NCBI RefSeq assembly: GCF_001423405.1
Contig: NZ_LMNS01000040.1
Span: 637-64,636, forward strand
Length of the DNA: 64,000 bases
Direction: 5' to 3'
Source: Methylobacterium sp. Leaf123
GTDB lineage: Bacteria > Pseudomonadota > Alphaproteobacteria > Rhizobiales > Beijerinckiaceae
Shown: positions 20,542 through 36,594 of the stretch, in pieces
Position numbering within the stretch: the stretch's first letter is position 1
How the letters are laid out: the number at the start of each line of letters is the position of its first letter
Program-made: the position numbers and the translations under genes
The notes under the pieces: generated by a model
What the model was told of the DNA's origin: nothing
What the model saw: only the letters and a program-made list of their open reading frames with translations
The model's database searches: none

Positions 20542-20626
20542 TTCCAGCAAGTTTCTGTTCACCGAACGTTCCTGCAGCGAAAACGTCAACGCCGTCCGGA
20601 GTTTGGTGGGATTTCTCACGAATTCG

Positions 20627-26217: not shown

Positions 26218-27101
26218 CGTTTGCCGATTGTCTTGATTTCCTGATCGGCCCCTTCGTCGAGTTCGGCTTCATGCGCCGGGCGCTCGCCGGGTGCCTCGCG
26301 CTGTCCCTCTCGGCCCCGCCGCTCGGCGTCTTCCTGATGCTGCGCCGGATGAGCCTGATGAGCGAGGCGATGAGCCACGCCATCCTGCCCGGCGCCGCCG
26401 CGGGCTTCCTCGTCGCCGGGCTGTCGCTGCCGGCGATGACGCTGGGCGGGCTCGTGGCCGGGCTCGCGGTGGCGCTGGCCGCCGGGCTCGTCACCCGCTC
26501 GACCGTGCTGAAGGAGGATGCCAGTCTGGCCGCCTTCTACCTGATCTCGCTAGCGGGTGGGGTGTTCCTCGTGTCGCTGCGCGGCTCGCAGGTCGATCTG
26601 CTGCACATCCTGTTCGGCACCGTGCTGGCGCTCGACGACGACGCGCTCACGCTGCTCGGAGGCATCGCCAGCCTCACGCTGGTGGCGCTCGCCCTGCTCT
26701 ACCGCCCGCTGGTGATCGAGTGCGTCGATCCGTTGTTCCTGCGCACGGTCAGCCGCGCCGGCGGTCCGGTGCATTCGGCCTTCCTCGCGCTGGTGGTGGT
26801 CAACCTCGTCGGCGGCTTCCAGGCGCTCGGCACGCTGCTGGCGGTCGGCCTGATGCTGCTGCCGGCGATCACCGCCCGGTTCTGGGCCGCCGACCTGTCG
26901 GGTCTGATCCCGGTGGCGATGCTGGTCTCGATGCTCTCCAGCGTGACCGGCCTGCTCGTCTCATACCATGCCGGCATCCGGCTCCCGACGGGACCGGCGA
27001 TCGTGCTGGCGGCGGGCGCGCTCTACCTCGTCTCGATGCTGGTCGGCCCCCGCGGCGGCCTGCTCCACCGCCTCGTGCGGCGGCGCCACTTGGAGGCGTG
27101 A
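26214..27101 (+). CDS. znuB: Zinc ABC transporter permease
   Basis: ABC-3 family integral membrane permease, 295 residues with about eight helices (LMLRRMSLMSEAMSHAILPGAAAGF is the conserved ABC-3 cytoplasmic motif). It forms the zinc channel with ZnuC. Starts at a GTG overlapping znuC. No periplasmic binding protein (znuA) gene follows, so it must be encoded elsewhere. A 20-bp palindrome sits 8 bp after the stop. Confidence 0.95.
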   Translation: MTFADCLDFLIGPFVEFGFMRRALAGCLALSLSAPPLGVFLMLRRMSLMSEAMSHAILPGAAAGFLVAGLSLPAMTLGGLVAGLAVALAAGLVTRSTVLKEDASLAAFYLISLAGGVFLVSLRGSQVDLLHILFGTVLALDDDALTLLGGIASLTLVALALLYRPLVIECVDPLFLRTVSRAGGPVHSAFLALVVVNLVGGFQALGTLLAVGLMLLPAITARFWAADLSGLIPVAMLVSMLSSVTGLLVSYHAGIRLPTGPAIVLAAGALYLVSMLVGPRGGLLHRLVRRRHLEA

Positions 27102-27108
27102 GGCGAAT

Positions 27109-27128
27109 CGCTCCGGCGCGCCGGAGCG
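27109..27128 (+). terminator. Hairpin after znuB
   Basis: Perfect 20-bp palindrome CGCTCCGGCG / CGCCGGAGCG just after the znuB stop. No T tract follows; it is likely the end of the znu transcript but may not act as an intrinsic terminator alone. Confidence 0.5.
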
Positions 27129-27280
27129 GCCCCGATTCATCATGGCCGGGAGGATGCGCCCCGCGGCGCGAAGGCATCGACCTGATGCGTCTCCAGGCGT
27201 GAAGGCGCCGTCTGCCGACGGCCACCGTGGCGCCGGCAACACATCGTTCACCATTCCAACGCGTCGTTCGGCCCCGAGGC

Positions 27281-27309
27281 TTTACACAGAACAAAACAGG
27301 AACAAAGAT
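27281..27309 (+). promoter_or_regulatory. SOS promoter with LexA box in the spacer
   Basis: A -35-like TTTACA (27281-27286) and a -10-like AAAGAT (27304-27309) are separated by exactly 17 bp. The spacer contains GAAC-AAAACAG-GAAC (27289-27303), a perfect match to the alphaproteobacterial LexA operator GAAC-N7-GAAC. LexA bound here would block RNA polymerase. The downstream gene starts at 27336. Confidence 0.8.
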
Positions 27310-27335
27310 CACTCCATCAACAGGGAGTGGAAGCG

Positions 27336-27440
27336 ATGACCAAGCGTGTGCTCTTCACCAGCCTCGTCGAGTTCACCGCCTTTGGCCTGCTCTTCGGAGC
27401 GGTCGCGCTCTGGGCGGTAGCCTTGGCGCCGATCCATTAA
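27336..27440 (+). CDS. SOS-regulated 34-residue membrane protein
   Basis: A 34-codon frame with a strong ribosome site (AGGGAG, 8 nt before ATG). The product has a short basic N-terminus (MTKR) and one hydrophobic helix (LLFGAVALWAVALA) and ends in PIH. It is directly preceded by a promoter with a perfect LexA box, so it should be induced by DNA damage. Single-pass small proteins with this control exist in Caulobacter (SidA, a division inhibitor). Homology to SidA is not claimed; the parallel is one of size, topology and regulation. dnaE follows about 200 bp downstream with its own likely start. Confidence 0.75.
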   Translation: MTKRVLFTSLVEFTAFGLLFGAVALWAVALAPIH

Positions 27441-27645
27441 AGGTTCGCGTTCGAGCGCGGTTTGTTCCGGCCTCGGCTGCGTTGCTCACAGGAAAGGGCA
27501 TCGAGCCGGCGTTTTCGGCCCGCCGCGCCGATCCGCACGGCGTCGGGCGCGAAGAGCGGTGGATATCGGGCGCAGTGCGGCGCCTTGGTGACAGACTCGG
27601 AAGGCATGGAGCGGCGATCTTAGCGGGCTCCGAGCAGGGTCCTTC

Positions 27646-30600
27646 ATGGCGCGCACACTCAAAGAGGTCGGCTTCGTCCACCTCCATGTCCACTCGTCTT
27701 ACTCGCTGCTCGAAGGCGGCGTGAAGGCGGGCGATCTCGTCAAGGCGGCCGCGGCCGACCGGCAGCCTGCGCTCGCGCTCACCGACACCAACAACCTGTT
27801 CGGGGCGCTGGAATTCTCCGAATACGCCGCCAAGGCGGGGATCCAGCCGATCGCCGGGCTCCAGCTCACGATCTGCTTCGAGGCGCCCGACCCGATGGCG
27901 CGCCTGCCCCAGGCCGGCTGCGCCAACATCGTGCTGCTCGCCCAGGACGAGACCGGATACGGCAACCTGCTGCGGCTCGGCAGCCGGGCCCATTTCGACG
28001 GTCCGCTCGGCGCCGCCCCCAACCTCGCCGTCTCGGCACTGGAGGGCAATGTCGAGGGGCTGATCGGCCTCACCGGCGGGCTCACGGGGCCGCTCGATAC
28101 CAGCCTGCGCGCCGGCCGCGCCGATCAGGCCGCGCGCCGCCTGGAGATCCTGAAAGGGGCGTTCGGCGAGGACCGGCTCTACGTCGAGATCCAGCGCCAC
28201 GGCCTTGATGACGAGCGCGCGGTCGAGCGCGAATTGCTGCGGCTCGCGGACACGAACGGCCTCGGCATCGTCGCCACCAACGAACCGTTCTTCGCCAAGC
28301 CCGGCGATTACGACGCGCACGACGCGCTGCTCGCCATCGCAGAGGGCCGTCTCGTCTCCGACGAGCGCCGCCGCCGGCTGACCCCGCGCCACGCCTTCAC
28401 CACGCGCGCCGCGATGATGGAGCTGTTCCGCGATCTGCCGGACGCGCTCTCGGCCTCCGTCGAGATCGCCATGCGTTGCTCCTACCGGGCGCGCACCCGC
28501 AAACCCATCCTGCCGAATTTCGCCAGCGTCGCTGCGGGCGAGGCGCCGCCCATGGCCGAGGCCCTGGCCGAAGCCGCCGAGACGCCGGTTCAGGCGGTCG
28601 CCGCCGACGAGCCGACGGAGCTGTGCCGGCAGGCCGAGGCCGGGCTGGAGCTGCGCCTGAAGCAGCACGGCACCGCCCCCGGCTTCACAGAGGAGGATTA
28701 CCGCGCGCGGCTGAAGTTCGAGCTCGACGTCATCGTCAAGATGAAGTTCCCGGGCTACTTCCTGATCGTCTCGGACTTCATCAAATGGGCCAAGGACCAC
28801 GACATCCCCGTGGGGCCGGGCCGCGGCTCGGGCGCGGGCTCGCTGGTGGCGTGGTCGCTCCTCATCACCGATCTTGACCCCCTCCGCTTCGGCCTGCTGT
28901 TCGAGCGCTTCCTCAATCCTGAGCGCGTCTCGATGCCGGACTTCGACATCGACTTCTGCGTCGAGGGCCGCGAGCGGGTGATCCGCTACGTGCAGCAGCG
29001 CTACGGCGAGCGGCAGGTCGGGCAGATCATCACCTTCGGTACGCTGCTCGCCCGCGGCGTGCTGCGCGACGTCGGCCGCGTGCTGGAAATGCCCTACGGG
29101 CAGGTCGACAAGCTGACCAAGCTCGTGCCGCAGAACCCGGCCAACCCCGTGACCCTGGCCCAGGCGATCGAGGGCGAGCCCAAGCTCCAGCAGGCGATCG
29201 AGGAGGAGCCGATCGTCGCGCGCCTCATCGAGATCTCGAAGAAGCTGGAGGGCCTGCACCGCCACGCCTCGACCCACGCCGCCGGCGTGGTGATCGGCGA
29301 CCGCCCACTCGAAGAACTGGTGCCGCTCTACCGAGACCCGAAGACGGGCATGCGGGTGACCCAGTTCAACATGAAATGGGTCGAGCAAGCCGGCTTGGTA
29401 AAGTTCGACTTCCTTGGCCTCAAGACCCTCACCATGCTGCGGTGCTGCACCGATCTGCTCAAGCAGCGCGGCATCGAGGTCGATCTCGCCCAGATCCCGC
29501 TGGATGACAAGAAAACCTACGAGCCGATGGGCCGGGGCGAGACCGTCGCGGTGTTCCAGGTGGAATCCGCCGGCATGCGGAAAGCGCTCTGCGAGATGCA
29601 GGCCGACCGCCTGGAGGACATCATCGCCCTGGTGGCGCTCTACCGGCCGGGCCCGATGGCCAACATCCCGGTCTATTGCGAGCGCAAGCTCGGGCGCGAC
29701 GCCGGCAACGAGGCGAGCTGGTACTCGCACCCGATGCTGGAGCCGATCCTGAAGGAGACCTTCGGGATCATCGTCTACCAAGAGCAGGTGATGGAGGTCG
29801 CCAAGGTTCTCGCCGGCTACACGCTGGGCGAGGCCGACATGCTCCGCCGCGCCATGGGTAAGAAGATCAAGGCGGAGATGGACGCCCAGCGCGACCGCTT
29901 CGTGAAGGGCTGCACCGAGAACGGCCTGACCAAAGCCAAGGCCGACGAGATCTTCGACCTGCTCGCGAAGTTCGCCGATTATGGCTTCAACAAGTCCCAC
30001 GCCGCGGCCTACGCGCTGGTGACCTACCAGACCGCCTATCTGAAGGCGAACCATCCGGTCGAGTTCCTGGCCGCGGCCATGACGCTCGACATCGACAACA
30101 CCGACAAGCTCGCCGAATTCCGCCAGGACGCGCAGCGCCTGAAGATCACCGTCGAGCCGCCGTCGGTGAACACCTCCGGCGTGGTGTTCGACGTGCGGGA
30201 GGGGCGCATCCTCTACGCGCTCGCCGCGATCAAGGGCGTCGGCCGCTCGGCGGTGGAATCGATCGTCGCCGCCCGCGGTGACACACCGTTCAAGGATCTC
30301 GCCTGCTTTGCCCGGCGCCTGAACCCGCGCCACGTCAACAAGCGCACGCTGGAGAACCTGATCGCGGCCGGGGCGCTGGATTGCATCGAGCCCGACCGGG
30401 CACGCGCCTGGGCCGCGGTCGAGCCGATGATGAAGATGGCCCAGGGCGCGGCCGAGGCCGAGACCTCGGGCATCACCGACATGTTCGGCGGCGTCGCCTC
30501 GGTGGATGTGGCGCTGCGCATCCCAGCCCACGAGTTCTGGACCCACACCGACAAGCTGAAACGCGAGTGCGATGCCATCGGCTTCTTCCTCTCGGGCCAT

Positions 30601-31167
30601 CCGCTCGACGAGTACGGGCCGATCCTCGAAAAGCTGCGGGTCCAGTCCTGGGCGGATTTCTGCCGGGCGGTGCGGGCGGGCACGGCCAGCGTCGGGCGGA
30701 TCGCGGCCTCGGTGCTCGACCGCTCGGAGCGGCGCACCAAGAGCGGCAACAAGCTCGGCATCGTCATCCTCTCGGACCAGACCGGGCATTTCGAGGCGAT
30801 CATCTTCTCCGAAGGGCTCAACCAGTACCGCGACATCCTCGAACCCGGCCGCCCGCTGGTGCTGACGATCCAGGCCAATCTGGAGGGCGAGGACGTGCGC
30901 GCCCGCATCACCACCGCCGAACCCCTCGATCAGGCCGCCGCCCGCCACCAGAAGGGCATGCGTATCTTCCTGCGCGATGACCGCGCCTTGAGTTCGGTGC
31001 AGCAGCGCCTGACCCTGCGCGGCGAGGGCGAGGTGTCGCTGATCCTCATCCTCGATGGCGGCGAGCGCGAGGTCGAGGTGCGACTGAAGGATCGCTACCA
31101 GGCGACCCCGCAGGTTGCGGGTGCGCTGCGCGCCGTGCCGGGGGTGGTTCAGGTCGAGGTGAACTGA
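27646..31167 (+). CDS. dnaE: DNA polymerase III alpha subunit
   Basis: Replicative polymerase catalytic subunit, 1173 residues, the usual DnaE1 length. The PHP domain starts with FVHLHVHSSYSLLEG and ALTDTNNLFG. The polymerase core has GPGRGSGAGSLVAW and the catalytic PDFDIDFC, followed by KFDFLGLKTLT, RPGPM and YGFNKSHAAAYA. The C-terminal helix-hairpin-helix, OB-fold and tau-binding region follow. It is not the DnaE2 paralogue, since there is no imuA/imuB next to it. A strong hairpin follows the stop codon. Start ATG at 27646 fits the family N-terminus. Confidence 0.97.
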   Translation: MARTLKEVGFVHLHVHSSYSLLEGGVKAGDLVKAAAADRQPALALTDTNNLFGALEFSEYAAKAGIQPIAGLQLTICFEAPDPMARLPQAGCANIVLLAQDETGYGNLLRLGSRAHFDGPLGAAPNLAVSALEGNVEGLIGLTGGLTGPLDTSLRAGRADQAARRLEILKGAFGEDRLYVEIQRHGLDDERAVERELLRLADTNGLGIVATNEPFFAKPGDYDAHDALLAIAEGRLVSDERRRRLTPRHAFTTRAAMMELFRDLPDALSASVEIAMRCSYRARTRKPILPNFASVAAGEAPPMAEALAEAAETPVQAVAADEPTELCRQAEAGLELRLKQHGTAPGFTEEDYRARLKFELDVIVKMKFPGYFLIVSDFIKWAKDHDIPVGPGRGSGAGSLVAWSLLITDLDPLRFGLLFERFLNPERVSMPDFDIDFCVEGRERVIRYVQQRYGERQVGQIITFGTLLARGVLRDVGRVLEMPYGQVDKLTKLVPQNPANPVTLAQAIEGEPKLQQAIEEEPIVARLIEISKKLEGLHRHASTHAAGVVIGDRPLEELVPLYRDPKTGMRVTQFNMKWVEQAGLVKFDFLGLKTLTMLRCCTDLLKQRGIEVDLAQIPLDDKKTYEPMGRGETVAVFQVESAGMRKALCEMQADRLEDIIALVALYRPGPMANIPVYCERKLGRDAGNEASWYSHPMLEPILKETFGIIVYQEQVMEVAKVLAGYTLGEADMLRRAMGKKIKAEMDAQRDRFVKGCTENGLTKAKADEIFDLLAKFADYGFNKSHAAAYALVTYQTAYLKANHPVEFLAAAMTLDIDNTDKLAEFRQDAQRLKITVEPPSVNTSGVVFDVREGRILYALAAIKGVGRSAVESIVAARGDTPFKDLACFARRLNPRHVNKRTLENLIAAGALDCIEPDRARAWAAVEPMMKMAQGAAEAETSGITDMFGGVASVDVALRIPAHEFWTHTDKLKRECDAIGFFLSGHPLDEYGPILEKLRVQSWADFCRAVRAGTASVGRIAASVLDRSERRTKSGNKLGIVILSDQTGHFEAIIFSEGLNQYRDILEPGRPLVLTIQANLEGEDVRARITTAEPLDQAAARHQKGMRIFLRDDRALSSVQQRLTLRGEGEVSLILILDGGEREVEVRLKDRYQATPQVAGALRAVPGVVQVEVN

Positions 31168-36473: not shown

Positions 36474-36594
36474 CCGTGTTCGTGTTATGTTCCGGTTTAT
36501 TTCGAGAAGCGCCGTGACCCGTCGGGACGGGGCGCGGTAGCGGACGCCAACGCAAGGTCGGCGCCCGGACTGAACTGACGATGTGGAGTGAGTG

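Follow-up and report, generated by a model that had tools for sequence, protein, structure and literature searches.

The DNA upstream of dnaE in Methylobacterium sp. Leaf123 raises the question of whether a very short reading frame that follows a LexA-type operator is a gene at all and, if it is, whether its product belongs with SidA, the 29-residue inner-membrane protein that Caulobacter uses as its primary inhibitor of division in the SOS response and that acts on FtsW (PMC4211646). The answer that we favor, and hold with reasonable confidence, is that the frame encodes an inner-membrane microprotein of 34 residues under repression by LexA, that it constitutes the Methylobacterium version of the Caulobacter sidA–dnaE locus, and that its product blocks division by way of the late septal machinery. 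Throughout, the window is the whole stretch of 64,000 nucleotides that was analysed, and features lie on its forward strand unless the strand is given.

Layout of the Locus

A putative LexA operator, GAACAAAACAGGAAC (GAAC-N7-GAAC, 27289-27303), lies between a −35-like hexamer, TTTACA (27281-27286), and a −10-like hexamer, AAAGAT (27304-27309). At the register of the former, CTTTACA is the majority sequence among 61 genus loci; the latter is a weak match to TATAAT. Two bases separate TTTACA from GAACAAAACAGGAAC, and the operator takes up 15 of the 17 bp of the spacer. No promoter passes a sigma-70 scan of 27000-27800, because AAAGAT makes a poor −10 element. The operator is assigned by its match to the motif, and binding of LexA and repression by it are inferred. 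An exact box also stands upstream of lexA in this genome.

Between AAAGAT and the ATG at 27336 lie 26 nt, including a Shine–Dalgarno-like AGGGAG (27322-27327). The frame that follows (27336-27440) encodes MTKRVLFTSLVEFTAFGLLFGAVALWAVALAPIH in 34 codons, with a TAA stop ending at 27440. In the list of open reading frames an upstream GTG at 27327 offers an alternative start that would yield 37 residues; the ATG is preferred because relatives start there. A single-sequence AlphaFold2 model consists of one helix spanning residues 3-30 (mean pLDDT 93.7, pTM 0.51). With 34 residues and one predicted hydrophobic helix, the product agrees in size and design with a SidA-type protein; insertion into the membrane and topology are inferred.

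The upstream neighbor, a membrane subunit of an ABC-3 family transporter, ends at 27101. Downstream, after a gap of 205 nt, comes dnaE (27646-31167), identified by its equivalog, its Pfam domains and its adjacency, and conserved in this position. Its product passes the NF004226 equivalog (1412.6 bits against a cut-off of 1002) and stays below the cut-off of the error-prone polymerase model (574.6 against 939), and is therefore assigned to the replicative type, the DNA polymerase III alpha subunit. The sequence-only reading had claimed an operator between the two hexamers, a ribosome site and 34-codon frame 26 nt beyond the −10 element, a single-helix membrane protein, and a position just upstream of dnaE. 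The first two can be read directly in the DNA, the third agrees with the predicted helix, and the fourth is confirmed by the gap and the equivalog.

The interval between the microprotein gene and dnaE holds a further element. At 27482-27491, and at the same place in relatives, NNNNNCACAG recurs in 42 of 53 dnaE-linked genus loci (the background for CACAG is 0.02 per 130 nt). In some genus loci the element appears as TTATRCACA or TTGTCCACA, forms that resemble a DnaA box. Control of dnaE by DnaA through an element of the NNNNNCACAG type is possible.

Conservation and Selection

The occurrence of the motif is weak evidence in itself. GAAC-N7-GAAC is found four times in the window against 1.2 expected, and 132 times in the genome against 77 for a reversed control. 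Because the bare motif is only mildly enriched, conservation rather than motif count was used as evidence. Taken alone, the motif is hardly above chance; it is conservation that lifts the putative operator of the window above it. A single-sequence search recovered the protein from 37 of 37 own-genus genomes and from none of 24 other genomes of the order, and the exact box stands just upstream in all 37. The box is also exact in each of 61 named loci (60 from Methylobacterium/Methylorubrum and one from a Beijerinckiaceae MAG, a set that overlaps with the 37 genomes). Across these 61, 13 of its 15 positions are invariant, the eighth is kept in 98%, and the eleventh varies. The idea of a chance motif was rejected on the strength of this conservation, mild as the excess in raw count is.

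The reading frame bears its own mark of selection. Of 98 sequences, 76 distinct 34-codon coding sequences entered the analysis; L140 and L145 were excluded for length. In frame, pS is 0.50 and pN is 0.24, with a median dN/dS of 0.31; in both shifted frames, a control run on 60 of the 76, pN exceeds pS. Conservation of a non-coding element is rejected by this frame-specific selection. To judge from the codon pattern, the microprotein ORF is a real gene, with purifying selection acting in this frame only. Nearly every methylobacterium examined carries the microprotein, as do many related bacteria.

These comparisons bear on the broader claim of the sequence-only reading, that of an SOS-controlled gene with a SidA-like design, which was to be given up if the frame were not conserved with a bias toward synonymous change. 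The frame is kept in all 37 genomes and pS exceeds pN, and the claim survives. It had also been proposed that relatives be searched for a conserved LexA box upstream, and the box proves exact both in all 37 genus genomes and in 79 of 90 loci retained from outside the genus. The comparative data on the box, in the 37 genomes and the 61 loci alike, support the claim; the control itself is inferred.

Spread across the Order

The profiles used to find relatives carry no promoter information, so the box provides an independent test of their matches. With the genus profile, matches were found in 49 of 298 genomes of the family, namely 25 from the genus itself, 21 from g56 and three from g42; the exact box is present at all 24 loci of g56 and g42. 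A profile to which these two groups had been added matched 51 of 347 order genomes at E 0.05, and a broader profile, A3, matched 61 of 199. Both of these order-level counts include some spurious matches. Earlier members of A3 were chosen partly with the box in view, and only the 48 places not already in the profile count as independent. Of these, 37 are small frames (no longer than 160 codons, or with no more than 45 codons up to the stop) and 11 are long frames. An exact box lies within 130 bp in 25 of the 37 small-frame places and in none of the 11 long-frame places; with up to one mismatch the figures are 30 of 37 and two of 11. In background stretches the corresponding frequencies are 0.66% for an exact box and 8.4% for a box with at most one mismatch.

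Ninety loci from outside the genus, representing 17 taxonomic families of the order, were kept by hand, a choice in which the box was in part taken into account. Loci of the genus itself, hits at class level and repeats of the same places are not among them. The 79 exact boxes become 85 when one mismatch is allowed. L174, a spurious second match, and L186 were dropped before this count; L186, at a contig edge, carries both the box and dnaE. Other loci (L193, L196, L221-L224, L284 and L306-L319) were dropped for lack of a convincing small ORF with a box, and one of them, L313, has dnaE nearby and no box. Among the loci that were kept, L188 and L275 lack both the box and dnaE, and the four of family f44 have no box at up to one mismatch, three of these four preceding dnaE.

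Two groups show peculiarities of their own. Members from f44 at L288, L290 and L298 are only 27 residues long (for example, MIIRDVLALGSLITFMSMIAVWMQVLV); they precede dnaE, the only box in their vicinity is degenerate, and they are the shortest seen in the family. In g56 (L089-L091, L093, L155-L168, L172, L173), the LexA box is doubled at 20 of 21 loci: one exact copy lies between the promoter elements and a second exact copy, 21 bp away, covers the leader. The doubled boxes may be read as a sign of tight repression.

Kept Residues and the Possibility of a Toxin

Within the genus, Glu12, Trp26, Ala29, Leu30 and Pro32 are invariant. All 43 rows of the order profile share a tryptophan and, at one helix position, serine or alanine; a phenylalanine is found in 39. 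Aspartate or glutamate occurs near the cytoplasmic side in 29 rows, and 17 have an acid in the column of Glu12 of the window. This pattern of kept residues suggests, without proving, a helix–helix contact more than a pore. Database searches gave little: Pfam and NCBIfam contain no match at E 1 to the window protein or five relatives, PADLOC none to three proteins, and the PDB none at E 10 to the window protein. PHROGs returned only weak matches (E 0.032-0.25), in three of five proteins, and two queries found no plasmid-borne relatives at E 0.01.

A small hydrophobic product under SOS control might instead be a membrane-acting peptide akin to the type I toxins TisB and DinQ of E. coli, which would depolarize the membrane and slow growth without blocking the divisome. 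Both are very short SOS-induced membrane peptides, as the microprotein would be. TisB reportedly belongs to the same size class, with LexA control and a single hydrophobic helix, and it is said to be a type I toxin controlled by an antisense RNA; the tisB gene is said to have a long regulatory leader. DinQ, too, shares with the microprotein its size class, its apparent LexA control and its single hydrophobic helix, and differs from it as a type I toxin under an antisense RNA (PMC3567139). The tight operator, doubled as it is in 20 of 21 g56 loci, would likewise suggest a harmful product. Several points speak against a toxin, however. At most 26 nt separate the −10 element from the start codon, which leaves no room for a leader of the tisB type, and Rfam gives no match at E 1 within 26900-27900. 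The tryptophan and phenylalanine kept across the order suggest a specific partner, and the position matches that of sidA. We regard a toxin as unlikely.

Linkage to dnaE

By tblastn, 57 of the 61 named genus loci have dnaE downstream in the same orientation, and it is found within 900 nt downstream in 85 of the 90 kept loci outside the genus. In the genus loci the distance from the start of the microprotein match to that of dnaE is about 205-338 nt.

Published locus tags suggest the same neighborhood for sidA. In one numbering of the C. crescentus genes, dnaE is CC1926, lexA CC1902 and recN CC1983 (PMC1839093). In the other, lexA is CCNA_01979 (PMC11535069), recN is CCNA_02062 (PMC12700426), sidA is CCNA_02004 (PMC11034885), and CCNA_02005 is a nucleoside hydrolase (PMC3667746). 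If the two numberings are collinear, dnaE falls within CCNA_02003-CCNA_02005; since two of these tags are taken, dnaE would be CCNA_02003, beside sidA. That Caulobacter sidA adjoins dnaE is thus an inference from the tags, which do not give the orientation.

Conserved linkage is also a point against the preferred reading, as the box could serve dnaE. The small ORF would then be a translated leader or coupling element, and the function of the box would be to make dnaE SOS-inducible. Besides the frequency with which dnaE follows directly, this proposal can draw on the report that dnaE is SOS regulated in C. crescentus (PMC3323433) and on the lack of a conserved terminator behind the ORF, an intrinsic terminator being unsupported there (17 of 62 loci, and 20 of 62 when shuffled). 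Against a mere leader stands the amino-acid selection on the ORF, and the exact box stays with the ORF where dnaE does not: no dnaE is present in the 3 kb read at L120-L123 of the genus, none was found in the stretch read at L273 and L276, and at L172 dnaE is not downstream. Moreover, the tags give Caulobacter dnaE a division inhibitor as its SOS-controlled neighbor, and the LexA site credited to C. crescentus dnaE may be the sidA operator. A leader as the explanation of the ORF appears to us quite improbable; a leader role for dnaE and a role for the microprotein may nevertheless coexist.

The four genus loci without dnaE, L120-L123, are those of the Methylobacterium bullatum group. At L123, at least, the downstream sequence resembles, by eye, the end of an OmpA-like gene running in the opposite direction.

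Probable Relatives beyond the Order

At the level of the class, dnaE was found in 31 of 32 genomes, and the region upstream of it was read in 30. A box with a small hydrophobic ORF precedes dnaE in five (two from f61, two from f56 and one from f172). The other 25 loci have no boxed ORF, two of them with a box within 100 bp of dnaE. Class-wide profile matches were only partly examined (from one search, only L227, L228 and L234 of the new loci), and among those examined there was no convincing member outside the order of the window except in f61 (G663, G796); the other examined matches from beyond the order came without an exact box. Reading upstream of dnaE worked better than class-wide profile searches.

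In family f56, dnaE was found in 32 of 32 genomes, and in 22 of the 30 that were read, two of which are the f56 loci of the class-level set, a box and a small membrane ORF precede it. The eight without a boxed ORF come from g442 (four of six) and g443 (four of four). The ORFs mostly have 31-36 residues from the ATG judged likely, and by the printed starts no boxed ORF has exactly 29. The RNA family RF01867 (CC2171) scores above cut-off in seven of 21 from f56 and in none of 15 others, and below cut-off in nine more from f56 and in five of the 15; among 14 named controls it is above cut-off only in Caulobacter vibrioides. From this signature, f56 is probably Caulobacteraceae.

The order profile and a profile made of f56 sequences only, A6, give a gap-free alignment of 28 columns (hhalign 59%, E 9.2e-5), with a score reached by none of 300 shuffles of all columns and by one of 300 shuffles of the membrane columns. 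Only this broadest profile matches f56. Against another f56 profile, A5, the genus profile A1 gave no match (1.7%) and A3 a weak one (11.5%); A5 included one f172 sequence, L381 without two residues, and L378 with its GTG start as M. Neither Trp26 nor Glu12 of the window protein is conserved in f56.

Relationship to SidA and Other Inhibitors

The microprotein is probably the counterpart of sidA, in position and by orthology, a kinship that rests on position and design and not on SidA's own sequence. Common descent with SidA is likely, from the shared position next to dnaE. Kinship, which the sequence-only reading did not claim, now has the stronger support, and position contributes more to it than sequence does. 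Both are LexA-controlled single-helix inner-membrane proteins of about 30 residues (control of the microprotein being deduced from the operator sequence) whose genes lie beside dnaE (in Caulobacter, as inferred from the tags). They differ in length, 29 residues against 34, and function is known only for SidA.

Other division inhibitors are more distant in design. DidA of Caulobacter crescentus is a small, damage-induced, single-helix membrane protein that inhibits division, but it has 71 residues, is independent of the SOS response (DriD), and binds FtsN (PMC4211646). YneA, SosA and ChiZ of Gram-positives and mycobacteria are also damage-induced small membrane inhibitors of division, and differ in that YneA and ChiZ have a LysM domain and SosA an extended helix (PMC13396833). 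The transmembrane segment of YneA binds TM7 of FtsW, and AlphaFold 3 models put SidA, SosA and ChiZ on FtsW, with what their authors call low confidence (PMC13396833). In a literature search of limited depth, the accessible portions of the sources named no SOS division inhibitor of methylobacteria or rhizobia and discussed SidA only in Caulobacter.

The choice of target deserves separate consideration. An SOS-induced membrane modulator might act outside the divisome, on transport, respiration or envelope stress. Many single-helix microproteins bind transporters, and no partner has been shown for this one. It is the position held in common with sidA, together with the precedent of SidA, YneA, SosA and ChiZ as SOS-induced single-helix division inhibitors (PMC4211646, PMC13396833), that leads us to give such a modulator very little credence.

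A Proposed Checkpoint at dnaE

The microprotein is probably a stop-dividing signal after DNA damage, with induction and arrest both inferred. In the undamaged cell, LexA seated between the promoter elements would keep the gene off. Upon DNA damage, RecA would trigger cleavage of LexA, and the short leader and ribosome site would afford fast synthesis. The protein would enter the membrane as a single helix, its basic end facing the cytoplasm, and contacts would be made by the tryptophan and phenylalanine kept across the order and by the acidic residue near the cytoplasmic side. The helix would bind the late septal wall machinery, most likely FtsW, FtsI or FtsN, and division would be held until repair is finished. 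FtsW as the target is an inference as well, and against the preferred reading stands the fact that no expression, LexA-binding or phenotype data were met for members outside Caulobacter.

We also lean toward a more general proposal, in which the dnaE locus of Alphaproteobacteria is an old SOS checkpoint and sidA only its Caulobacter case. The order of the window, the probable Caulobacteraceae and a handful of further families would have retained a fast-evolving single-helix inhibitor that other lineages lost. Arrest may be coupled to the supply of polymerase through the shared promoter, and LexA sites attributed to dnaE would be those of the microprotein.

Each genome that carries the microprotein gains a defined candidate for an SOS division inhibitor, one that comes with its promoter, its start codon and target residues for mutation; candidates elsewhere can be sought simply by looking before dnaE. 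LexA sites credited to the regulation of dnaE may in fact belong to the microprotein gene. The family also provides a large set of natural variants of a minimal helix, a possible inhibitor of FtsW.

Other LexA-Like Sites in the Window

Two further exact copies of GAAC-N7-GAAC, at 20557-20571 on the reverse strand and 562-576 on the forward strand, have no link to a recognised SOS gene and may be due to chance. Another LexA-like site, GAACATAACACGAAC (36478-36492, reverse strand), lies between recO and parC, the gene for subunit A of topoisomerase IV. Eight stretches from relatives were considered; the parC motif was found in three, and in all three an exact box lies at the same distance before parC. 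It is possible on this evidence that parC belongs to the SOS regulon.
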